From contig JASJDC010000001.1 of assembly GCA_030065235.1 (NCBI GenBank), positions 62,001 to 126,000 on the forward strand: a DNA stretch of 64,000 nt, given 5' to 3'. Below the pieces are notes generated by a model that was given only the letters and a program-made list of their open reading frames with translations, made no database searches and was not told where the DNA came from. The DNA is from Alphaproteobacteria bacterium. Its GTDB lineage: Bacteria; Pseudomonadota; Alphaproteobacteria; UBA8366; Aestuariispiraceae. Shown here piece after piece: positions 19,139 to 26,696 of this stretch (within the stretch, counting starts at the first letter, position 1; every line of letters starts with the position of its first letter). The position numbers were made by a program, and so were the translations under genes.

Positions 19139-20980
19139 GTGACCGATCCTAAAAAGGGACTCGGCCTGGACGATTCGACGTCCAATGACTCTGTCGAAGA
19201 TGCTGTATCGATTGCTCGCAGCAGATTGCATTCTTGGGAGTTGGCCAGGGCGGAGAATGACATCGCGCTGTGCGACGCCTTGATGCAGGAACTGCGGGAT
19301 CTGGCGGCGGCGTTTGGTGATAACAGCGCGGTCCGGGAGCAGCTCGTCAAAGGGCTTTTGGAGTCCTTGGACTACGCGAACGAGATCGACGATTCTGCCC
19401 GAAGTCGTTCTTTGTTGCAGGAGATACGCGACCTTGAGGCGGCGCATTTGAGTGACGCCTCGGTTCGCGCGCGGCTCGCAACGGCCCAGTATTGCGAAAT
19501 CTATTGGAGTTCAAAAAAGGGGGATTGGAGCCGGTGTGACCCCGTGTTGCAGGACCTGCGCGATCTCGCGTCGGCTCATGAGGATGACGCCACCGTTCGG
19601 GCGGCTCTCGCCATGTGTCTTTACAACGTGTTGACCAATAGTGAAGGCAGAGGTGATCCGCAGTTACGCGATACTTTGATGCAAGATCTGCGCGGTTTGG
19701 CGGCGGCGCCAGGCGACGACGGCGCGGGTCGACAGATGCTCTCAAGCGCCCTCTTCAACGCGCTGTGCCAGGCGACGGAGGACCGTGACCTACAGCGACG
19801 CGATGCACTGCTGCAGGAACTGCGGGATTTGGCGGCGGCGCATGAGGACGACGGCTCGGTAGGCGCTGATCTGGCAATGGGCCTGTTCAACACACTGAAC
19901 CACGCCAAGGCGGAAGGGGATCTGGCGCGTCGGGACGCGCTGCTGCAGGAGTTGCGCAGTCTGACGGCGGCGCTCGCGGAAGAAAGCCCAATTCGGAAAC
20001 AACTCGCCATGGGTCTCTTCAACACGTTGAACCATGCCGCATGGGAGAATGATCTGGCGCGACGCGATGGACTCTTGCGGGAGCTTCGCACCTTGGCGGC
20101 TGGCCACGCGGAGGATGGTGCGGTCCGGGAAAACCTCGCGATGGGTCTGTTCAACTCAATGAACAACGCCAAGGAGGAAGGCGACCGAGCGCGCAGCGAC
20201 GAGCTATTGCAGGAATTGCGTGACTTGGCGGAAGCGTTTCCAGACCAAAGCACGGTTCGCGCGCACCTCGCGATGGGCTTGATGAACACGCTGAGGTTCG
20301 CTGTGGAGGAAACCGATCGGACGCGGCGCGACGCGCTCTTGCAGGAATTGCGCGATCTGATGGCGAAGCATGGCCAAGACGACGCCGTCCGGAAGCAACT
20401 CGCGATGGGTTTGTTCAACACACTGGCGGACGCCCAGGCCGAGGGAGACGGCGACCTGCGTGACACGCTGCTTCAGGAACTGCGCGATCTTTCGGCGGCC
20501 CATGACGAGGACCCGCATTTGCGGAAGACGCTCGCGCAAAACCTGTTGAATACGCTGAATTGTGTCGCGGACGAAGGGGACTTGCTGCGCCGAGACGCCT
20601 TGTTGCAAGAACTGCGGGATCTGGCGGCGCGCCACATTGAGGACGCTGAAGTTCGCAGACAGTTAGCCATGGGCTTCGTCAATGCGGTGATTGATGCTGA
20701 GCACGGGAAACAAATCGCCCGGGGCCAGAGTTTCATGCGGGAACTGCGAGAGTTGGCGGCTACCCATGCTGGGGACGCTGGGGTCCAGGAGCAAATGGCC
20801 AAAGCACTCAATGTGCTGATCTACTACGATAATGACATGAGCTCGGACCAGAGCGACGCGCTGCGTCGGGAACTGCATGCTTTGGCGGCTGCCAATAGCG
20901 ACGTTGAGAGCATTCAGCATTATTTGCGCTCCGCCAGAGCGATACGCGCGCGCGAGAGTCCCGATGGGGCTAATTCGTAG
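19139..20980 (+). CDS. uncharacterised protein made of twelve 44-residue helical repeats
   Basis: Function unknown. Starting at GTG 19139 (AGGAG at 19124-19128; an in-frame ATG at 19079 has no ribosome site) the 613-residue product has about 47 unique residues and then repeats every 44 residues to near the end. Consensus helices are LLQELRDLAAAH and VRxxLAMGLFNTLNxA, joined by EDDxx and by EGDLARRDA. The pattern of small and large hydrophobics in paired antiparallel helices suggests a solenoid akin to TPR, Sel1 or kinesin-light-chain repeats. There is no signal peptide or membrane segment, so it is probably a cytoplasmic scaffold. It stands alone between smpB and a convergent lipoprotein gene. 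Confidence 0.75.
   Translation: MTDPKKGLGLDDSTSNDSVEDAVSIARSRLHSWELARAENDIALCDALMQELRDLAAAFGDNSAVREQLVKGLLESLDYANEIDDSARSRSLLQEIRDLEAAHLSDASVRARLATAQYCEIYWSSKKGDWSRCDPVLQDLRDLASAHEDDATVRAALAMCLYNVLTNSEGRGDPQLRDTLMQDLRGLAAAPGDDGAGRQMLSSALFNALCQATEDRDLQRRDALLQELRDLAAAHEDDGSVGADLAMGLFNTLNHAKAEGDLARRDALLQELRSLTAALAEESPIRKQLAMGLFNTLNHAAWENDLARRDGLLRELRTLAAGHAEDGAVRENLAMGLFNSMNNAKEEGDRARSDELLQELRDLAEAFPDQSTVRAHLAMGLMNTLRFAVEETDRTRRDALLQELRDLMAKHGQDDAVRKQLAMGLFNTLADAQAEGDGDLRDTLLQELRDLSAAHDEDPHLRKTLAQNLLNTLNCVADEGDLLRRDALLQELRDLAARHIEDAEVRRQLAMGFVNAVIDAEHGKQIARGQSFMRELRELAATHAGDAGVQEQMAKALNVLIYYDNDMSSDQSDALRRELHALAAANSDVESIQHYLRSARAIRARESPDGANS
19280..20980 (+). repeat. tandem 132-bp coding repeats
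   Basis: Twelve units begin at 19280 and follow at 132-bp steps (for example 19808 and 19940, each starting on the leucine before LQELR), the twelfth being one codon shorter, with a partial thirteenth at 20861. DNA similarity is strongest in units five to nine, where the block coding LLQELRDL and AMGLFNTLN is nearly unchanged, while the outer units have diverged. This indicates growth by duplication and offers a route to copy-number change by recombination. Confidence 0.85.
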
Positions 20981-21757: not shown

Positions 21758-22864
21758 ATGGACGAGCGCTTCATTCCTCTAACCGAGACCGTCCGCGCCT
21801 TGCCGGCGACGACGCCTTTCGTTGGGCCCGAGGCGTTGGAGCGCACGAACGGCGCCGTCTTCAAGGCGCGGATCGGGGCCAATGAAAGCGCCTTCGGCCC
21901 ATCGCCCAAGGCGCTGGCGGCGATGCGCGACGCGGTGGCGGAGGCGAGCTGGTACGGCGATCCGGAGAATTTCGAACTGCGCCAGGCCATCGCCGCGCAT
22001 CATGGCGTCGGGATGGACAATGTCTGCGTCGCCGCCGGGATCGATTCTTTGCTGGGGCTGGTGGTGCGCATGCTGGTCTCGCCCGGCGCGCCGATCGTCA
22101 CCTCCCTGGGCGCCTATCCGACCTTCAACTACCAGGTCTCCGGCTTCGGCGGCGCGCTGCATACGGTTCCCTACCGGAACGATTTCGAGGATCCCGAAGC
22201 GCTGTTGGACAAGGCCAAAGCGGTCGAGGCGCCGCTGCTCTATGTCGCCAATCCGGACAATCCGATGGGTTCCTGGCATGGCGCGGCGTCGGTACAATCG
22301 CTGATCGACAGCGTTCCCACCGGCAAGGTCCTGATCCTGGACGAAGCCTATGCGGATTTTCTCGACCCGGTTGAGATACCGGCGATTGACGTCTCCAACC
22401 CGTGCGTCATTCGGATGCGCACTTTCTCGAAGGCGCACGGGCTGGCGGGCGCGCGGGTCGGCTACGCCATCGCTCACCCGGCTCTGATCACCGGGCTGAA
22501 CAAGATACGCAATCAGTTCGAGGTGACCCGCGTCAGCCAGGCCGGCGCTCTGGCGGCCTTTCAAGACCCGCAATATGTCGGCCAGGTGGTCGCCGAAGTC
22601 GCGGCGGGAAAGGCGGACATTGCAAAGATCGCGTCGAAGCACGGTTTCACGGCGCTGCCATCAGCGACCAATTTCGTCGCCATCGATGTCGGCGGTCATG
22701 AGCAGGCGACGCGCATGATGGCGGAGCTTGGCCGTCGCGGGGTCTTTATCCGGATGCCGGGCGCCGCTCCGTTGAACCGCTGCATTCGGGTGACGGTCGG
22801 GACGGAGAAGGACCGCGCGGTCTTCGCCGATGCCTTGGCGGATGTGGTTGCGAGCGGAGGCTGA
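21758..22864 (+). CDS. PLP-dependent aminotransferase, histidinol-phosphate aminotransferase-like
   Basis: Fold type I PLP aminotransferase, 368 residues, of the HisC branch. The Schiff-base lysine is K225 in RTFSKAHGLAG; NPDNPMG (165-171) and DEAYADF (195-201) bind PLP, and the C-terminal RIRV-like arginine segment (CIRVTVG) is present. ATG 21758 is preferred to 21731 by the G-rich run just upstream. It is followed by a formamidase fusion, a BKACE gene and an acetylpolyamine deacetylase in the same direction, not by his genes, so it probably transaminates a catabolic substrate rather than histidinol phosphate. Confidence 0.85.
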   Translation: MDERFIPLTETVRALPATTPFVGPEALERTNGAVFKARIGANESAFGPSPKALAAMRDAVAEASWYGDPENFELRQAIAAHHGVGMDNVCVAAGIDSLLGLVVRMLVSPGAPIVTSLGAYPTFNYQVSGFGGALHTVPYRNDFEDPEALLDKAKAVEAPLLYVANPDNPMGSWHGAASVQSLIDSVPTGKVLILDEAYADFLDPVEIPAIDVSNPCVIRMRTFSKAHGLAGARVGYAIAHPALITGLNKIRNQFEVTRVSQAGALAAFQDPQYVGQVVAEVAAGKADIAKIASKHGFTALPSATNFVAIDVGGHEQATRMMAELGRRGVFIRMPGAAPLNRCIRVTVGTEKDRAVFADALADVVASGG

Positions 22865-22947
22865 TCCTTGCGCCCGACAATCCGTCTGGAAGCCGACCGG
22901 CGATCGGGCTAGCCTGACCAAATGAAAGGCTTGAGGGGGTCGGTTCC

Positions 22948-24180
22948 ATGAGGGTTTCGTATGCGGAGTCGGCCCCGTCTCTCTGGACGGCGGCGGGGGC
23001 CGCGGGCGGCGCCAGGCTGGTGACGACGCCACGCATCGCGGCCGGCCCGGTGCATCCGCTCGACGACGCCTTTCGCGCGGTCTTGAAACAGGCGGCGCGG
23101 TCATTGACGGCGGAAGGCGCGGCGCCGGGGCATCTGTCCCAGGCGGTGTTTCATATTCATTCCCGAAGTGAGTTCGACGAAGCGTTGCTGGATCTCGACC
23201 TCGCCTATCGCGAGTATTTCGCCGGCAACTTCCCGGAGATCACCGTTGTTGAGGATCCGTCGGTCGAGACGATCGATGTGGCCTTCTCGGCGCTGATCCC
23301 GCCGGCCGACCCGGGCCGGGTGGTCTATGACGGTTATACCCAGGCCGAGATCGACTATCAGTATTCGCCGCGCGCCCAGGCGCCGGATTACGAACGAGTC
23401 TTCGATGTCTGGCGGACCGCGGGACCCGCCTATCAGCGTGCGCATCGCAGGGCTGAGATCTTCTACGGCGACAGCGCGCGGCAGAGCGTCGATCTCTACC
23501 TGCCGCCCGAGGCTGACAACCCGCCGATCCATGTCTTCGTGCATGGCGGCTATTGGCAGGCGATCGACAAGAAGAACCACGCGCATGCCGCCGCCGGTCT
23601 GCTCAGCGCGGGCGTCGCCGTGGCGATGCCGAACTACGACCTGATGCCCGATGTCGATCTTGAGGAGATCATCCGCCAGACCCGCCATTCGGTTGCGAAA
23701 ATCTACGAACTGGCGGGCGCGTACGGTTATGACGGCGAGCGGCTCACCGTGTCGGGCCATTCGGTGGGCGGGCATTTGGCGGGCGTTCTGGCTTGTACGG
23801 AATGGCGGCGGGAAACCGATGGCGCACCGGATGACTTAATCAAGGCCGCGCTCTCGATCTCCGGCGTCTTCGACCTGACGCCGCTGGCGCAAACCGGCAT
23901 GAACCGGGTCTTCGGTTTCACGCCCGATAACTGCCGACGGCTCAGCGTGACCAGCATGCCGCCGCCGACGGCGCTGCCAGTCACGCTCTGCGTCGGCGGC
24001 AAGGAGAGCGCTGAGTTTCATCGCCAGACGACGCTTTTCGGCGATTATATGGCGGCGCAGGGCTGTCCGGTTGAGACGGTCCAGGCGCCGGACGACGATC
24101 ATTTCACCATTGTCGAGGCTTTTGGCGATCCGGCGACGCCGCTGGGCGCGGCCGCGATCGCGATGGCGCGGCGGGCCTAG
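22948..24180 (+). CDS. Rid (RidA/YjgF)-like domain fused to kynurenine formamidase-like alpha/beta hydrolase
   Basis: A 410-residue two-domain protein. Residues about 20-118 resemble the Rid/YjgF fold (GARLVTTPRIAAGP, helix with LKQAARSLTAEGA, LAYREYF, then SVETIDVAFSAL); the usual imine-binding arginine is not visible. Residues about 125-410 are a full arylformamidase-type hydrolase: lead-in YDGYTQAEIDYQYSPR, oxyanion motif H199-G-G-Y-W, nucleophile S272 in GHSVGGHL, acid E353 in GGKESAEF and H385. Such hydrolases cut N-formylkynurenine or related amides. GAGGGGG precedes the ATG. The gene lies 83 bp after the aminotransferase and 28 bp before the BKACE gene, so both domains probably serve one pathway. 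Confidence 0.85.
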   Translation: MRVSYAESAPSLWTAAGAAGGARLVTTPRIAAGPVHPLDDAFRAVLKQAARSLTAEGAAPGHLSQAVFHIHSRSEFDEALLDLDLAYREYFAGNFPEITVVEDPSVETIDVAFSALIPPADPGRVVYDGYTQAEIDYQYSPRAQAPDYERVFDVWRTAGPAYQRAHRRAEIFYGDSARQSVDLYLPPEADNPPIHVFVHGGYWQAIDKKNHAHAAAGLLSAGVAVAMPNYDLMPDVDLEEIIRQTRHSVAKIYELAGAYGYDGERLTVSGHSVGGHLAGVLACTEWRRETDGAPDDLIKAALSISGVFDLTPLAQTGMNRVFGFTPDNCRRLSVTSMPPPTALPVTLCVGGKESAEFHRQTTLFGDYMAAQGCPVETVQAPDDDHFTIVEAFGDPATPLGAAAIAMARRA

Positions 24181-24208
24181 GCGGCCCGGCCAGCGGGGAG
24201 GGGAAGGT

Positions 24209-25138
24209 ATGCCTCAGAAGAAAGCGATCATCACCTGCGCGATCACCGGCTCGATCCACACGCCGACCATGTCGGAACATCTGCCGATCACGCCCGACGA
24301 AATCGCCGAACAGGCGATCGGGGCGGCGGAGGCGGGCGCAGCGGTTCTGCATTTACACGCGCGCAAGCCCGATGACGGGCGCCCGACCCAGGACCCGGAC
24401 GTCTATATGCAGTTCCTGCCGCGCATCAAACAGAACACCAACGCCGTGGTGAACATCACCACCGGCGGGGGCCTGGGCATGCCGGTTGAGGAGCGGCTGG
24501 CCCCGTCGCTGGTCGCCGAGCCGGAGCTCTGCTCGCTGAATATGGGATCGATGAATTTCGGCATCTTCCCCATGCTCGAGAAATACGAGGCTTGGAAATA
24601 CGGCTGGGAGCCCGACTATCTTGCGTCGACCAAGGACTTCATTTTTAAAAACACTTTCAATGATATAGAATCGATCTTGACGAAAATGGGTAAGAAAGAA
24701 ACAAGGTTCGAGTTCGAATGCTATGACGCCGGGCATCTCTATACGCTAAAGCATTTCTATGATCGGGGATTGGTGAAGGCGCCGATCTTCGTGCAATTCG
24801 TCATGGGCATTCTGGGCGGGATCGGGGCCGACACCGAAAACTTGGTCTTCCTGAAGAAGACCGCCGACAAGCTGTTCGGCGAGGCCTATGTTTGGTCGAT
24901 CCTCGGCGCGGGCCGTATGCAGATGCCGCTGGCCGCCGTCGCCGCCGGGATGGGCGGCAATGTCCGTGTCGGGCTGGAGGACAGTTTGTTGATCAGCCGC
25001 GGCAAGCTCGCAAAGAACAACGCGGAGCAGGTCGCCAAAGTGCGCTCGATCCTGGAAAGCCTGTCGATTGAGGTCGCGACGCCGGACGAGGCGCGAGAGA
25101 TATTGGCGCTCAAAGGCGGCGACCGGGTGAAGTTCTAG
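24209..25138 (+). CDS. beta-keto acid cleavage enzyme (BKACE, DUF849 family)
   Basis: Zinc enzyme that condenses a beta-keto acid with acetyl-CoA and splits it to acetoacetate and a new acyl-CoA; the founder, Kce, acts on 3-keto-5-aminohexanoate in lysine fermentation. The 309-residue product has metal-binding H48 and H50 in LHLHARKP, the TTGGG segment after VNIT and GLED with the acidic ligand. A ribosome site (GGGAAGG) precedes ATG 24209. Placement in an operon with aminotransferase, amidase and deacetylase suggests an amino-substituted beta-keto acid as substrate, but the subgroup cannot be told by eye. Confidence 0.9.
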   Translation: MPQKKAIITCAITGSIHTPTMSEHLPITPDEIAEQAIGAAEAGAAVLHLHARKPDDGRPTQDPDVYMQFLPRIKQNTNAVVNITTGGGLGMPVEERLAPSLVAEPELCSLNMGSMNFGIFPMLEKYEAWKYGWEPDYLASTKDFIFKNTFNDIESILTKMGKKETRFEFECYDAGHLYTLKHFYDRGLVKAPIFVQFVMGILGGIGADTENLVFLKKTADKLFGEAYVWSILGAGRMQMPLAAVAAGMGGNVRVGLEDSLLISRGKLAKNNAEQVAKVRSILESLSIEVATPDEAREILALKGGDRVKF

Positions 25139-25161
25139 CCGCGCGAGACGGGAGGTCGGCC

Positions 25162-26190
25162 ATGAAACTCTTCTTCGACGAAGCGCAGCGCCTCCATGAC
25201 CCCGACAGTTTCATTGTGCTCGGCCAGGTCAAACCCAATCCCGAAACGCCGGAACGCGCAGCGCGCCTGTTGGCTGGCGTCGCGGAGACGGGGCATGAGG
25301 CGATTACGCCCGAAGATCATGGTCTGGGGCCGATCGCGGCGGTCCATACGCCGGACTATCTGCATTTCCTGAAGACCATCCATGAGGAATGGAGCCTGGT
25401 TCCCGGCGCCGGGCCGGAGGTCATCCCGAACATCCATCCGACCCGGCATCGTCCCGATGCGCTTTACACGTCGCCGGTCGGCAAGGCTGGCTATTTTATG
25501 GCCGATACCGCTTGCCCGATTTCGGCGGACACTTGGGGGTCGGTCTACGCCAGCGCGCAATCGGCGATCGGCGCGGCGCTGGCGGTGCGCGAGGGGGAGG
25601 CGGCGGTCGCCTACGCCCTGTGCCGGCCGCCAGGCCATCACGCCTTCGCCGACATGGCCGGCGGCTTCTGTTTCGTGAACAATTCGGCCGTCGCCGCGCA
25701 GTTGCTCAGGGCGCGCCACGACCGAGTCTGCGTGCTCGATGTCGATGTGCATCATGGCAACGGCACGCAGGGGATTTTTTACGAACGCTCGGACGTCTTG
25801 ACGGTCTCGCTGCATCGCGACCCGGCGGGTTACTACCCGTTCTTCTGGGGCCACGCCCACGAGTTGGGGGAAGGCGCGGGCCGCGGCTACAATCTGAATT
25901 ATCCGCTGTCGAAAGGGACCATCGATCATGGCTTCCTAATGACGCTGGACCAGGCGCTGGAGAAGATCCGGCTTTACGCGCCCGGCGCGCTTGTCGTCGC
26001 GCTCGGCCTCGACGCCTATGAAGGCGACCCGCTGAAAGGGCTGAAGATCACGACCGAGGGGTTTGGCTATATCGCCGCCCGGATCGCCCGGCTGGGACTG
26101 CCGACCGTTCTGATCCAGGAAGGCGGCTATGTCAGCGACGGGCTCGGCCCCAATCTCGCCAGCTTCCTCGCCGGGTTCGAGAGCATCTAG
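25162..26190 (+). CDS. acetylpolyamine amidohydrolase (histone-deacetylase family)
   Basis: Zinc hydrolase that removes acetyl groups from N-acetylputrescine, acetylcadaverine or similar amines. The 342-residue length and residue positions agree closely with the Mycoplana APAH: tandem histidines H159-H160 (RPPGHHA), zinc ligands D195 and H197 (DVDVHHGN), a later ligand in LGLDAYEGDP and catalytic Y323 (EGGY). It ends the four-gene plus-strand operon, 23 bp after BKACE, and is convergent with the GNAT gene. A role in releasing free diamines or amino acids from acetylated forms is inferred. Confidence 0.9.
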   Translation: MKLFFDEAQRLHDPDSFIVLGQVKPNPETPERAARLLAGVAETGHEAITPEDHGLGPIAAVHTPDYLHFLKTIHEEWSLVPGAGPEVIPNIHPTRHRPDALYTSPVGKAGYFMADTACPISADTWGSVYASAQSAIGAALAVREGEAAVAYALCRPPGHHAFADMAGGFCFVNNSAVAAQLLRARHDRVCVLDVDVHHGNGTQGIFYERSDVLTVSLHRDPAGYYPFFWGHAHELGEGAGRGYNLNYPLSKGTIDHGFLMTLDQALEKIRLYAPGALVVALGLDAYEGDPLKGLKITTEGFGYIAARIARLGLPTVLIQEGGYVSDGLGPNLASFLAGFESI

Positions 26191-26234: not shown

Positions 26235-26696
26235 TTAGGGAGCGGGCCAAACATAGCGCATGTCCGGCAAGCGCTCTTCATTCCGGTCGCCGGCCGTTTG
26301 TTCCGCGATGACGAAGCCATTCTTTTCGTAGAAGGCGCGCGCTCTCCGGTTAGCCTGAAAACACCAGAGCGTCAGGCCGGAAGGCCGCCGGGTTTTCGCC
26401 TCATCCACCAACCGGCGTCCAACGCTTTGAGACCAATGATCCGGCGCGACATACAACAAATGGATTTCATCTTGGTCCAAAGCCAGAAAACCCAAAATAC
26501 GCTGATCGCTGGTTGTTTTCGCGTTCTTGGCCACCAGGACCTCGCACGAACCAAAGATCTGCTGTTCAATGAATCGGCGCTTTTCACCGTCGGTGTAAAG
26601 TTCGGGCAGAAAATCCAAGGTTTCCAAAGACGCGATGAAGGTGGCGGCGACCGCCGATGCGTCGCTGTCCTGCGCATCGTGAATCTGAACGGCCAA
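26235..26696 (-). CDS. GNAT-family N-acetyltransferase
   Basis: A 153-residue GNAT protein. The central segment ALDQDEIHLLYVAPDHWSQS followed by VGRRLVDEA is the acetyl-CoA-binding motif A region (the usual Q/R-x-x-G-x-G/A loop reads QSVGRR), and the C-terminal ANRRARAFYEKNGF is motif B. No ATG is found near the N-terminus; a TTG at 26696, 11 bp after the stop of the sulfur transporter gene, is the most plausible start, so translation may be coupled. Substrate unknown. It is the last gene of the minus-strand run from glpK. Confidence 0.78.
   Translation of the reverse strand: MAVQIHDAQDSDASAVAATFIASLETLDFLPELYTDGEKRRFIEQQIFGSCEVLVAKNAKTTSDQRILGFLALDQDEIHLLYVAPDHWSQSVGRRLVDEAKTRRPSGLTLWCFQANRRARAFYEKNGFVIAEQTAGDRNEERLPDMRYVWPAP

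Follow-up and report, generated by a model that had tools for sequence, protein, structure and literature searches.

A stretch of 64,000 nucleotides from an alphaproteobacterium of the family Aestuariispiraceae (GenBank assembly GCA_030065235.1, contig JASJDC010000001.1, positions 62,001 to 126,000; the whole of it is called the window below) carries four genes at positions 21758-26190. Two of these encode a BKACE-family enzyme, which cleaves beta-keto acids, and a deacetylase of the acetylpolyamine-amidohydrolase type (APAH). They form a conserved pair that probably contributes to the degradation of an acetylated amino acid resembling lysine. We give a probability of about 0.4 to the proposal that this pair is a functional core acting on a substrate of the N6-acetyl-beta-lysine type, with a HisC-like aminotransferase (AT) in the aminotransferase slot and a Rid-hydrolase fusion as an accessory. 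The proposal rests on the observed gene content, conserved linkage and catalytic motifs; from these we infer the order of the steps, the substrate and the substitution of the aminotransferase. A preliminary description of this DNA had taken all four genes as one operon for the catabolism of an amino compound. The evidence supports this interpretation in part: its chemistry is plausible and its unit wrong. What is of interest is the BKACE-APAH module, conserved and found in clusters with a class-III aminotransferase and a GNAT. The four genes are:

21758..22864, plus strand: AT, a pyridoxal-phosphate aminotransferase of the PRK08153 type, HisC-like and not HisC, possibly for an amine-to-ketone step
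22948..24180, plus strand: Rid-hydrolase, a Rid-like domain fused to a kynurenine-formamidase-like alpha/beta hydrolase, perhaps a thioesterase or clean-up enzyme
24209..25138, plus strand: BKACE (PF05853), core of the pair
25162..26190, plus strand: APAH, an acetylpolyamine-amidohydrolase-type deacetylase, core of the pair

The linkage was surveyed in 29 genomes (the window's own and its relatives) and 385 genomes of the class, each searched with all four proteins; genes in the neighborhoods were called with a codon model, and by tblastn in low-GC genomes. The BKACE-APAH pair occurs at 29 places, seven of them short copies of listed loci, which leaves 22 distinct loci, and 19 of these have a class-III aminotransferase no more than 9 kb from the pair. 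The loci lacking one nearby are those of the window, of G008 (L132) and of G012 (L138), in the last of which the contig ends at the pair and the aminotransferase adjoins the other BKACE fragment. This operon aminotransferase is PRK07483-like, scoring slightly below the cut-off of that model. The larger cluster of the relatives comprises a divergent LysR gene, PotB, PotC, a solute-binding protein, PotA, the class-III aminotransferase, BKACE and APAH, and many of these clusters also contain a DAO-family oxidase and a Rid protein. Of the 22 pairs, 14 come with a transporter of the polyamine type and three more with an annotated amino-acid ABC transporter. In seven of the 22 loci (two Shinella, Phyllobacterium, Pararhizobium and three genomes of the class sample) a GNAT gene stands between BKACE and APAH. 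The Shinella protein at L222, the sole one searched, has a thialysine acetyltransferase, 2fe7 and diamine acetyltransferase 2 as its best PDB matches, with ornithine-N5 acetyltransferases lower in the list. Both Shinella clusters are flanked by a thioesterase gene (acyl-CoA thioesterase or thioesterase-family).

The earlier naming of the two core proteins is borne out by profile searches and motifs. The window BKACE matches PF05853 with 367.4 bits against a gathering cut-off of 24.8 (E 5.8e-110) and contains H48 and H50, which we take to be the metal site. Its E170 and R253 align with E171 and R254 of BKACE15 from Paracoccus denitrificans (PDB 8rio), a Glu and an Arg with catalytic roles according to the excerpts of PMC11961710; BKACE15 belongs to the same long-form subfamily and differs in having T where the window protein has F197. 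The NF053538 model (3,5-dioxohexanoate:acetyl-CoA acetone transferase) is passed at 538.7 against 430; its name was rejected as a guide to the substrate, as eight of eight BKACEs from other contexts also score above its cut-off. The Kce model gives 255.1, far below its cut-off of 382. The window APAH matches Hist_deacetyl (PF00850, E 5.2e-72), possesses the motifs DVDVHHGNG, GLDAY and QEGGY, and finds its nearest PDB entries among acetylpolyamine amidohydrolases, with 3men as the best.

In the mechanism that we propose, an aminotransferase would convert N6-acetyl-beta-lysine to 6-acetamido-3-oxohexanoate. BKACE would then move the two-carbon unit of this amino-derived beta-keto acid onto acetyl-CoA, yielding acetoacetate and an acyl-CoA with an acetylated distal amine, which for this model substrate would be 4-acetamidobutyryl-CoA. 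Finally, APAH would remove the acetyl group to leave 4-aminobutyryl-CoA or 4-aminobutyrate, together with acetate. The acetyl would act as a protecting group, added beforehand by an omega-acetyltransferase and taken off afterwards by the deacetylase; a 6-amino-3-keto acid lacking it would be expected to cyclise. In the relatives the amine-to-ketone step may fall to the linked class-III aminotransferase, to the DAO-family FAD (flavin adenine dinucleotide) oxidase or to both, and uptake to the ABC transporter of the polyamine or amino-acid type. In the window the aminotransferase slot could be taken by the AT and the Rid/thioesterase slot by the Rid-hydrolase, or the AT could be a chance neighbor.

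Aerobic degradation of beta-lysine in Pseudomonas proceeds through N6-acetylation, transamination, cleavage to 4-acetamidobutyryl-CoA and acetoacetate, and deacetylation. The preliminary description knew of no described pathway with the steps it had assembled; this route has them, without a role for a Rid-formamidase. Each of its functions, namely acetyltransferase, aminotransferase, BKACE-type cleavage enzyme and deacetylase, has a counterpart gene in the GNAT-bearing relatives. The window offers, by family, the cleavage enzyme followed by the deacetylase, but lacks a linked acetyltransferase of this kind, and its aminotransferase belongs to another type (PRK08153). Transamination, beta-keto acid cleavage and deacetylation, as originally suggested, draw support from the relatives' class-III aminotransferase-BKACE-(GNAT)-APAH clusters. 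Among the papers listed for Creative Commons-licensed PMC literature we found neither a gene assignment for the Pseudomonas route nor any text in which BKACE occurs together with deacetylase wording. Likewise, the excerpts of PMC11961710, PMC12421898, PMC12133276, PMC6365646, PMC3149608 and PMC10470551 do not describe a BKACE-APAH link.

Other systems resemble the pair in part. In lysine fermentation, Kce converts a lysine-derived keto acid to acetoacetate and an amino-acyl-CoA, which is likewise a BKACE-family cleavage; in the excerpts of that source, aminomutases and a dehydrogenase take the place of acetylation and transamination, and there is no deacetylase (PMC3149608). In oxidative deoxyribonate catabolism, BKACE cleaves a beta-keto acid supplied by a neighboring oxidising enzyme, the keto group arising from an alcohol via a dehydrogenase, and the excerpts describe no deacetylase; one species has a CoA-transferase and a thiolase in place of BKACE (PMC6365646). 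A comparable exchange is seen in Alisedimentitalea (L225:8953-16407), where CoA-transferase subunits, an ArgE/DapE deacylase and a thiolase replace BKACE and APAH after the aminotransferase; this cluster continues with an amidohydrolase and an alanine racemase. In Rhizobium sp. CB3171 (L224:10300-10701) a BKACE relic of 133 amino acids persists between the aminotransferase and the GNAT. At L249:3911-11000, PotABCD, BKACE and a DAO-family oxidase occur without a class-III aminotransferase or a close APAH; this locus and the TRAP-BKACE-DAO grouping of G003 represent other amine-oxidising partners for BKACE. The excerpts of PMC11961710 give the physiological role of BKACE15 as unknown.

The window array itself is compact. 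The genes, their order and the gaps of 83, 28 and 23 bp between AT, Rid-hydrolase, BKACE and APAH are as first described, all on the plus strand, with an uncertainty of a few codons in the AT start (the gene caller picked 21731). The three gaps contain no terminator-like site (seven in the region against 4.3 expected), one such site lies directly 3' of APAH (26284-26296), and the sole promoter-like match falls inside BKACE at shuffle level. A single transcript for the four genes appears plausible from these features of the sequence.

The array does not recur as such. In a sample of 14 genomes of the same family (G000-G013, with G000 the window's own), BKACE and APAH lie next to each other on the same strand in 12, the window's included, and G004 and G006 are the exceptions. 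Ten of the 13 other family genomes have an AT orthologue (57% or more; the G013 copy is split over two contigs), and in none of the ten does it stand beside BKACE or APAH. Nor is the AT near either gene in any of 18 other AT-positive class genomes (E<=1e-95) among the matches listed. The fusion is present at full length in 11 of the 13, and in the stretches around these 11 none of the other three genes appears except in G003, where a BKACE lies at a distance of 6.7 kb; among the 80 loci retained of 281 with fusion relatives in named genomes, no other member of the four-gene set lies within the flanks. Among the genomes surveyed, this is the only one in which all four genes were found together. 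Of the operon first described, the BKACE-APAH linkage stands and that of the AT and the Rid-hydrolase falls: the former two genes stay together in the relatives surveyed and the latter do not stay with them.

This raises the alternative that only the BKACE-APAH pair forms a functional unit, the AT and the Rid-hydrolase having been brought next to it through a local rearrangement and belonging to other pathways, which we consider quite possible, if short of probable. Besides the missing linkage, it is favored by gene order: the window has, in compact form, dapA, smpB, AT, Rid-hydrolase, BKACE, APAH and YedE, and G003 has YedE, DAO oxidase, BKACE, TRAP transporter, Rid-hydrolase, AT, smpB and dapA in the same order and orientation, spread over ~60 kb; at the G008 locus the order is BKACE, APAH, DAO, YedE. 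A local rearrangement or deletion would account for the window array; selection for co-expression is possible. Furthermore, the usual neighbor of the fusion is an M20-family gene, which adjoins it in nine of 11 same-family relatives (Pfam was run on three). On the other hand, the four genes share a strand and are separated by short gaps, the missing class-III aminotransferase leaves an aminotransferase slot vacant, and in Roseovarius pelagicus (L256:8969-9823) a formamidase-like hydrolase, 32% to that of the window, directly follows BKACE. This is the single such case among nine stand-alone BKACE plasmid loci, in none of whose stretches an APAH is annotated; the Roseovarius cluster also includes a choline dehydrogenase and an aldehyde dehydrogenase. 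At the stand-alone Thalassospira BKACE locus, an alpha/beta hydrolase lies two genes away on the opposite strand. A cyclase-family gene before BKACE in Chelatococcus was tried as a relative of the fusion and is unrelated by BLAST.

The AT matches Aminotran_1_2 and, as the earlier label of a HisC-like aminotransferase implied, is HisC-like but, to judge from profile scores, not HisC, because it remains below the cut-off of the hisC model TIGR01141 (239.5 against 276.55), whereas it passes that of NF006014/PRK08153 (518.4 against 510). Its best PDB match is 4wbt, and the motifs SKAHGLAG and NPDNP are present. In the fusion, the C-terminal half matches BD-FAE/Abhydrolase_3, has 2pbl ('putative thioesterase') and the kynurenine formamidase 4e11 as PDB matches, and displays the formamidase fold and motifs (HGGYW, GHSVGGH). 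Its N-terminal half drew no match in the Pfam search; a model of modest confidence (mean predicted local distance difference test score, pLDDT, 65) retrieved only Rid/YjgF-family folds among its 50 listed matches (best E 3.8e-5). In alignment this half lacks the Arg present in five free-standing Rid proteins of related clusters, presumably the catalytic Arg of the RidA enamine/imine deaminase. The hydrolase part of the supposed Rid-formamidase fusion is therefore sound, and its N-terminal domain is, according to the model, Rid-like minus the Arg of the operon Rid proteins. No kynureninase or other tryptophan-catabolism gene was recognised among those neighbors of the window fusion that were typed, and kynureninase was discarded as the formamidase partner, the recurrent neighbor in relatives being M20-family instead. 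Its role is perhaps that of an accessory, such as a thioesterase or clean-up enzyme.

A BKACE tree of 45 rows unites the window protein with those of G008 and G003 (G003-C3) in a trio with support 100/100, outside the operon group; 21 operon or aminotransferase-linked BKACEs lie on one side of a branch supported at 78/94. Among columns that separate the groups, picked after the fact, position 197 is F in the trio, F in 18 and Y in one of 19 operon rows, and F in both aminotransferase-only rows; F or Y occurs there in none of 21 other BKACEs. Positions 241, 198 and 216, among others, are also operon-like in the trio, and positions 229, 89, 90 and 201 of the window protein have the state of the stand-alone group, so that the window BKACE appears to mix residues of both. 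These data bear on a second alternative, namely that the trio is a lineage of its own acting on a different substrate, a beta-keto acid that DAO or AT would produce from another amine, and that APAH deacetylates the imported compound first. We hold it to be possible, though less likely than not. The 100/100 trio, its mixed residues and its contexts (a TRAP transporter and an oxidase in G003, APAH and an oxidase in G008) speak for it, as do APAH trees pointing to repeated recruitment; the operon-like residues, F197 included, speak against it, and a union of the trio with the operon BKACEs is not rejected by the approximately unbiased (AU) test (p 0.36).

In the APAH tree (59 rows) the window and G008 proteins pair at 100/99, apart from the operon APAHs. 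A single clade of the 22 operon APAHs is rejected (p 0.006, with the caveat that the long branch L142 is among them); it is for this reason that the BKACE-APAH pairing, as judged from the tree, probably arose more than once. It requires at least four changes on the tree, counting gains or losses and without a shuffle control. Two genomes of the order (L252:970-3639, L253:1-2446) have an APAH-like gene (41-42%), a small gene and a DAO-family oxidase (52-53%) on contigs without BKACE. That the window APAH is an ordinary acetylpolyamine deacetylase lying beside BKACE incidentally is improbable: its nearest PDB entries, the frequent APAH regions without an adjacent BKACE and the stand-alone BKACE loci favor this, and the pair at 22 distinct loci, 19 with the same class-III aminotransferase, and the repeated changes on the tree oppose it. 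The amidohydrolases of known structure (PDB 3men, 3q9b) share the HDAC fold and motifs with the window APAH and differ in that the latter type is coupled to BKACE at 22 loci, on account of which a substrate other than acetylpolyamines is suggested.

Several observations weigh against our proposal of an N6-acetyl-beta-lysine-type core in the window. In the window the pair lacks a linked class-III aminotransferase, oxidase and transporter, as well as a GNAT related to that of the operons. A clade of the 22 operon APAHs plus the window pair is rejected (AU p 0.007, with the same long-branch caveat), the BKACE trio takes no firm place in its tree, and some of its residues, as noted, are of the stand-alone state; the sequences stop short of making the window pair an orthologue of the operon pair. 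Among 40 APAH regions of the class sample (mostly its better-scoring places, family genomes excluded), five have an adjacent BKACE and 35 do not, one of the latter having the aminotransferase without BKACE. A search of G000 for the operon aminotransferase gave no orthologue, the best match being 44%, and the G008 oxidase had no match there at E<=1e-60. In view of the trees, the mixed BKACE residues and this missing orthologue, we regard the window pair as a side branch, which could act on the substrate of the operon pair or on another. Finally, none of the 14 family genomes has a match to lysine 2,3-aminomutase (KamA family, TIGR00238); two genomes of the order have one. The idea that beta-lysine is produced locally was accordingly dropped, and the substrate would have to be imported, which the relatives' linked transporters would allow.

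The 44% match in G000 (G000:C15:15276-17419, outside the window) is a class-III aminotransferase directly before a distant BKACE-like gene, with the same arrangement by coordinates in several family genomes. At L250:1023-6001, a KamA-family gene, two ATP-grasp-like genes (by inspection) and a 608-aa open reading frame with an APAH-like part (38%) are cut by the contig end; this cluster was considered as a local beta-lysine source and is too distant to count. Next to the window array, a GNAT-like acetyltransferase frame (by inspection; 26235 to ~26710, minus strand) converges with the end of APAH; it was rejected as the missing acetyltransferase, as none of the matches listed between operon GNATs and the window is significant (all E > 0.5). 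Upstream, a repeat protein (19241-20980, plus strand) consists of recurring RRDALLQELRDLAA-like units and has no Pfam match above cut-off.

Extending our proposal to the relatives, it is possible, though less likely than not, that class-III aminotransferase-BKACE-(GNAT)-APAH is the gene basis of the aerobic beta-lysine/N6-acetyl-beta-lysine pathway, that lineages without GNAT scavenge the osmolyte N6-acetyl-beta-lysine, and that the window is a stripped variant with a HisC-like aminotransferase and a Rid-hydrolase replacing the usual partners. If the reading is true, a pathway known from older enzymology would gain genes, among them those of the N6-acetyl-beta-lysine transaminase and the 4-acetamidobutyryl-CoA deacetylase, and activities that to our knowledge are orphan would become testable. 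Genomes could then be searched for a sink of beta-lysine and of the osmolyte N6-acetyl-beta-lysine, and some bacterial HDAC-like deacetylases, now generically called 'histone deacetylase family protein', would acquire a defined function in metabolism.

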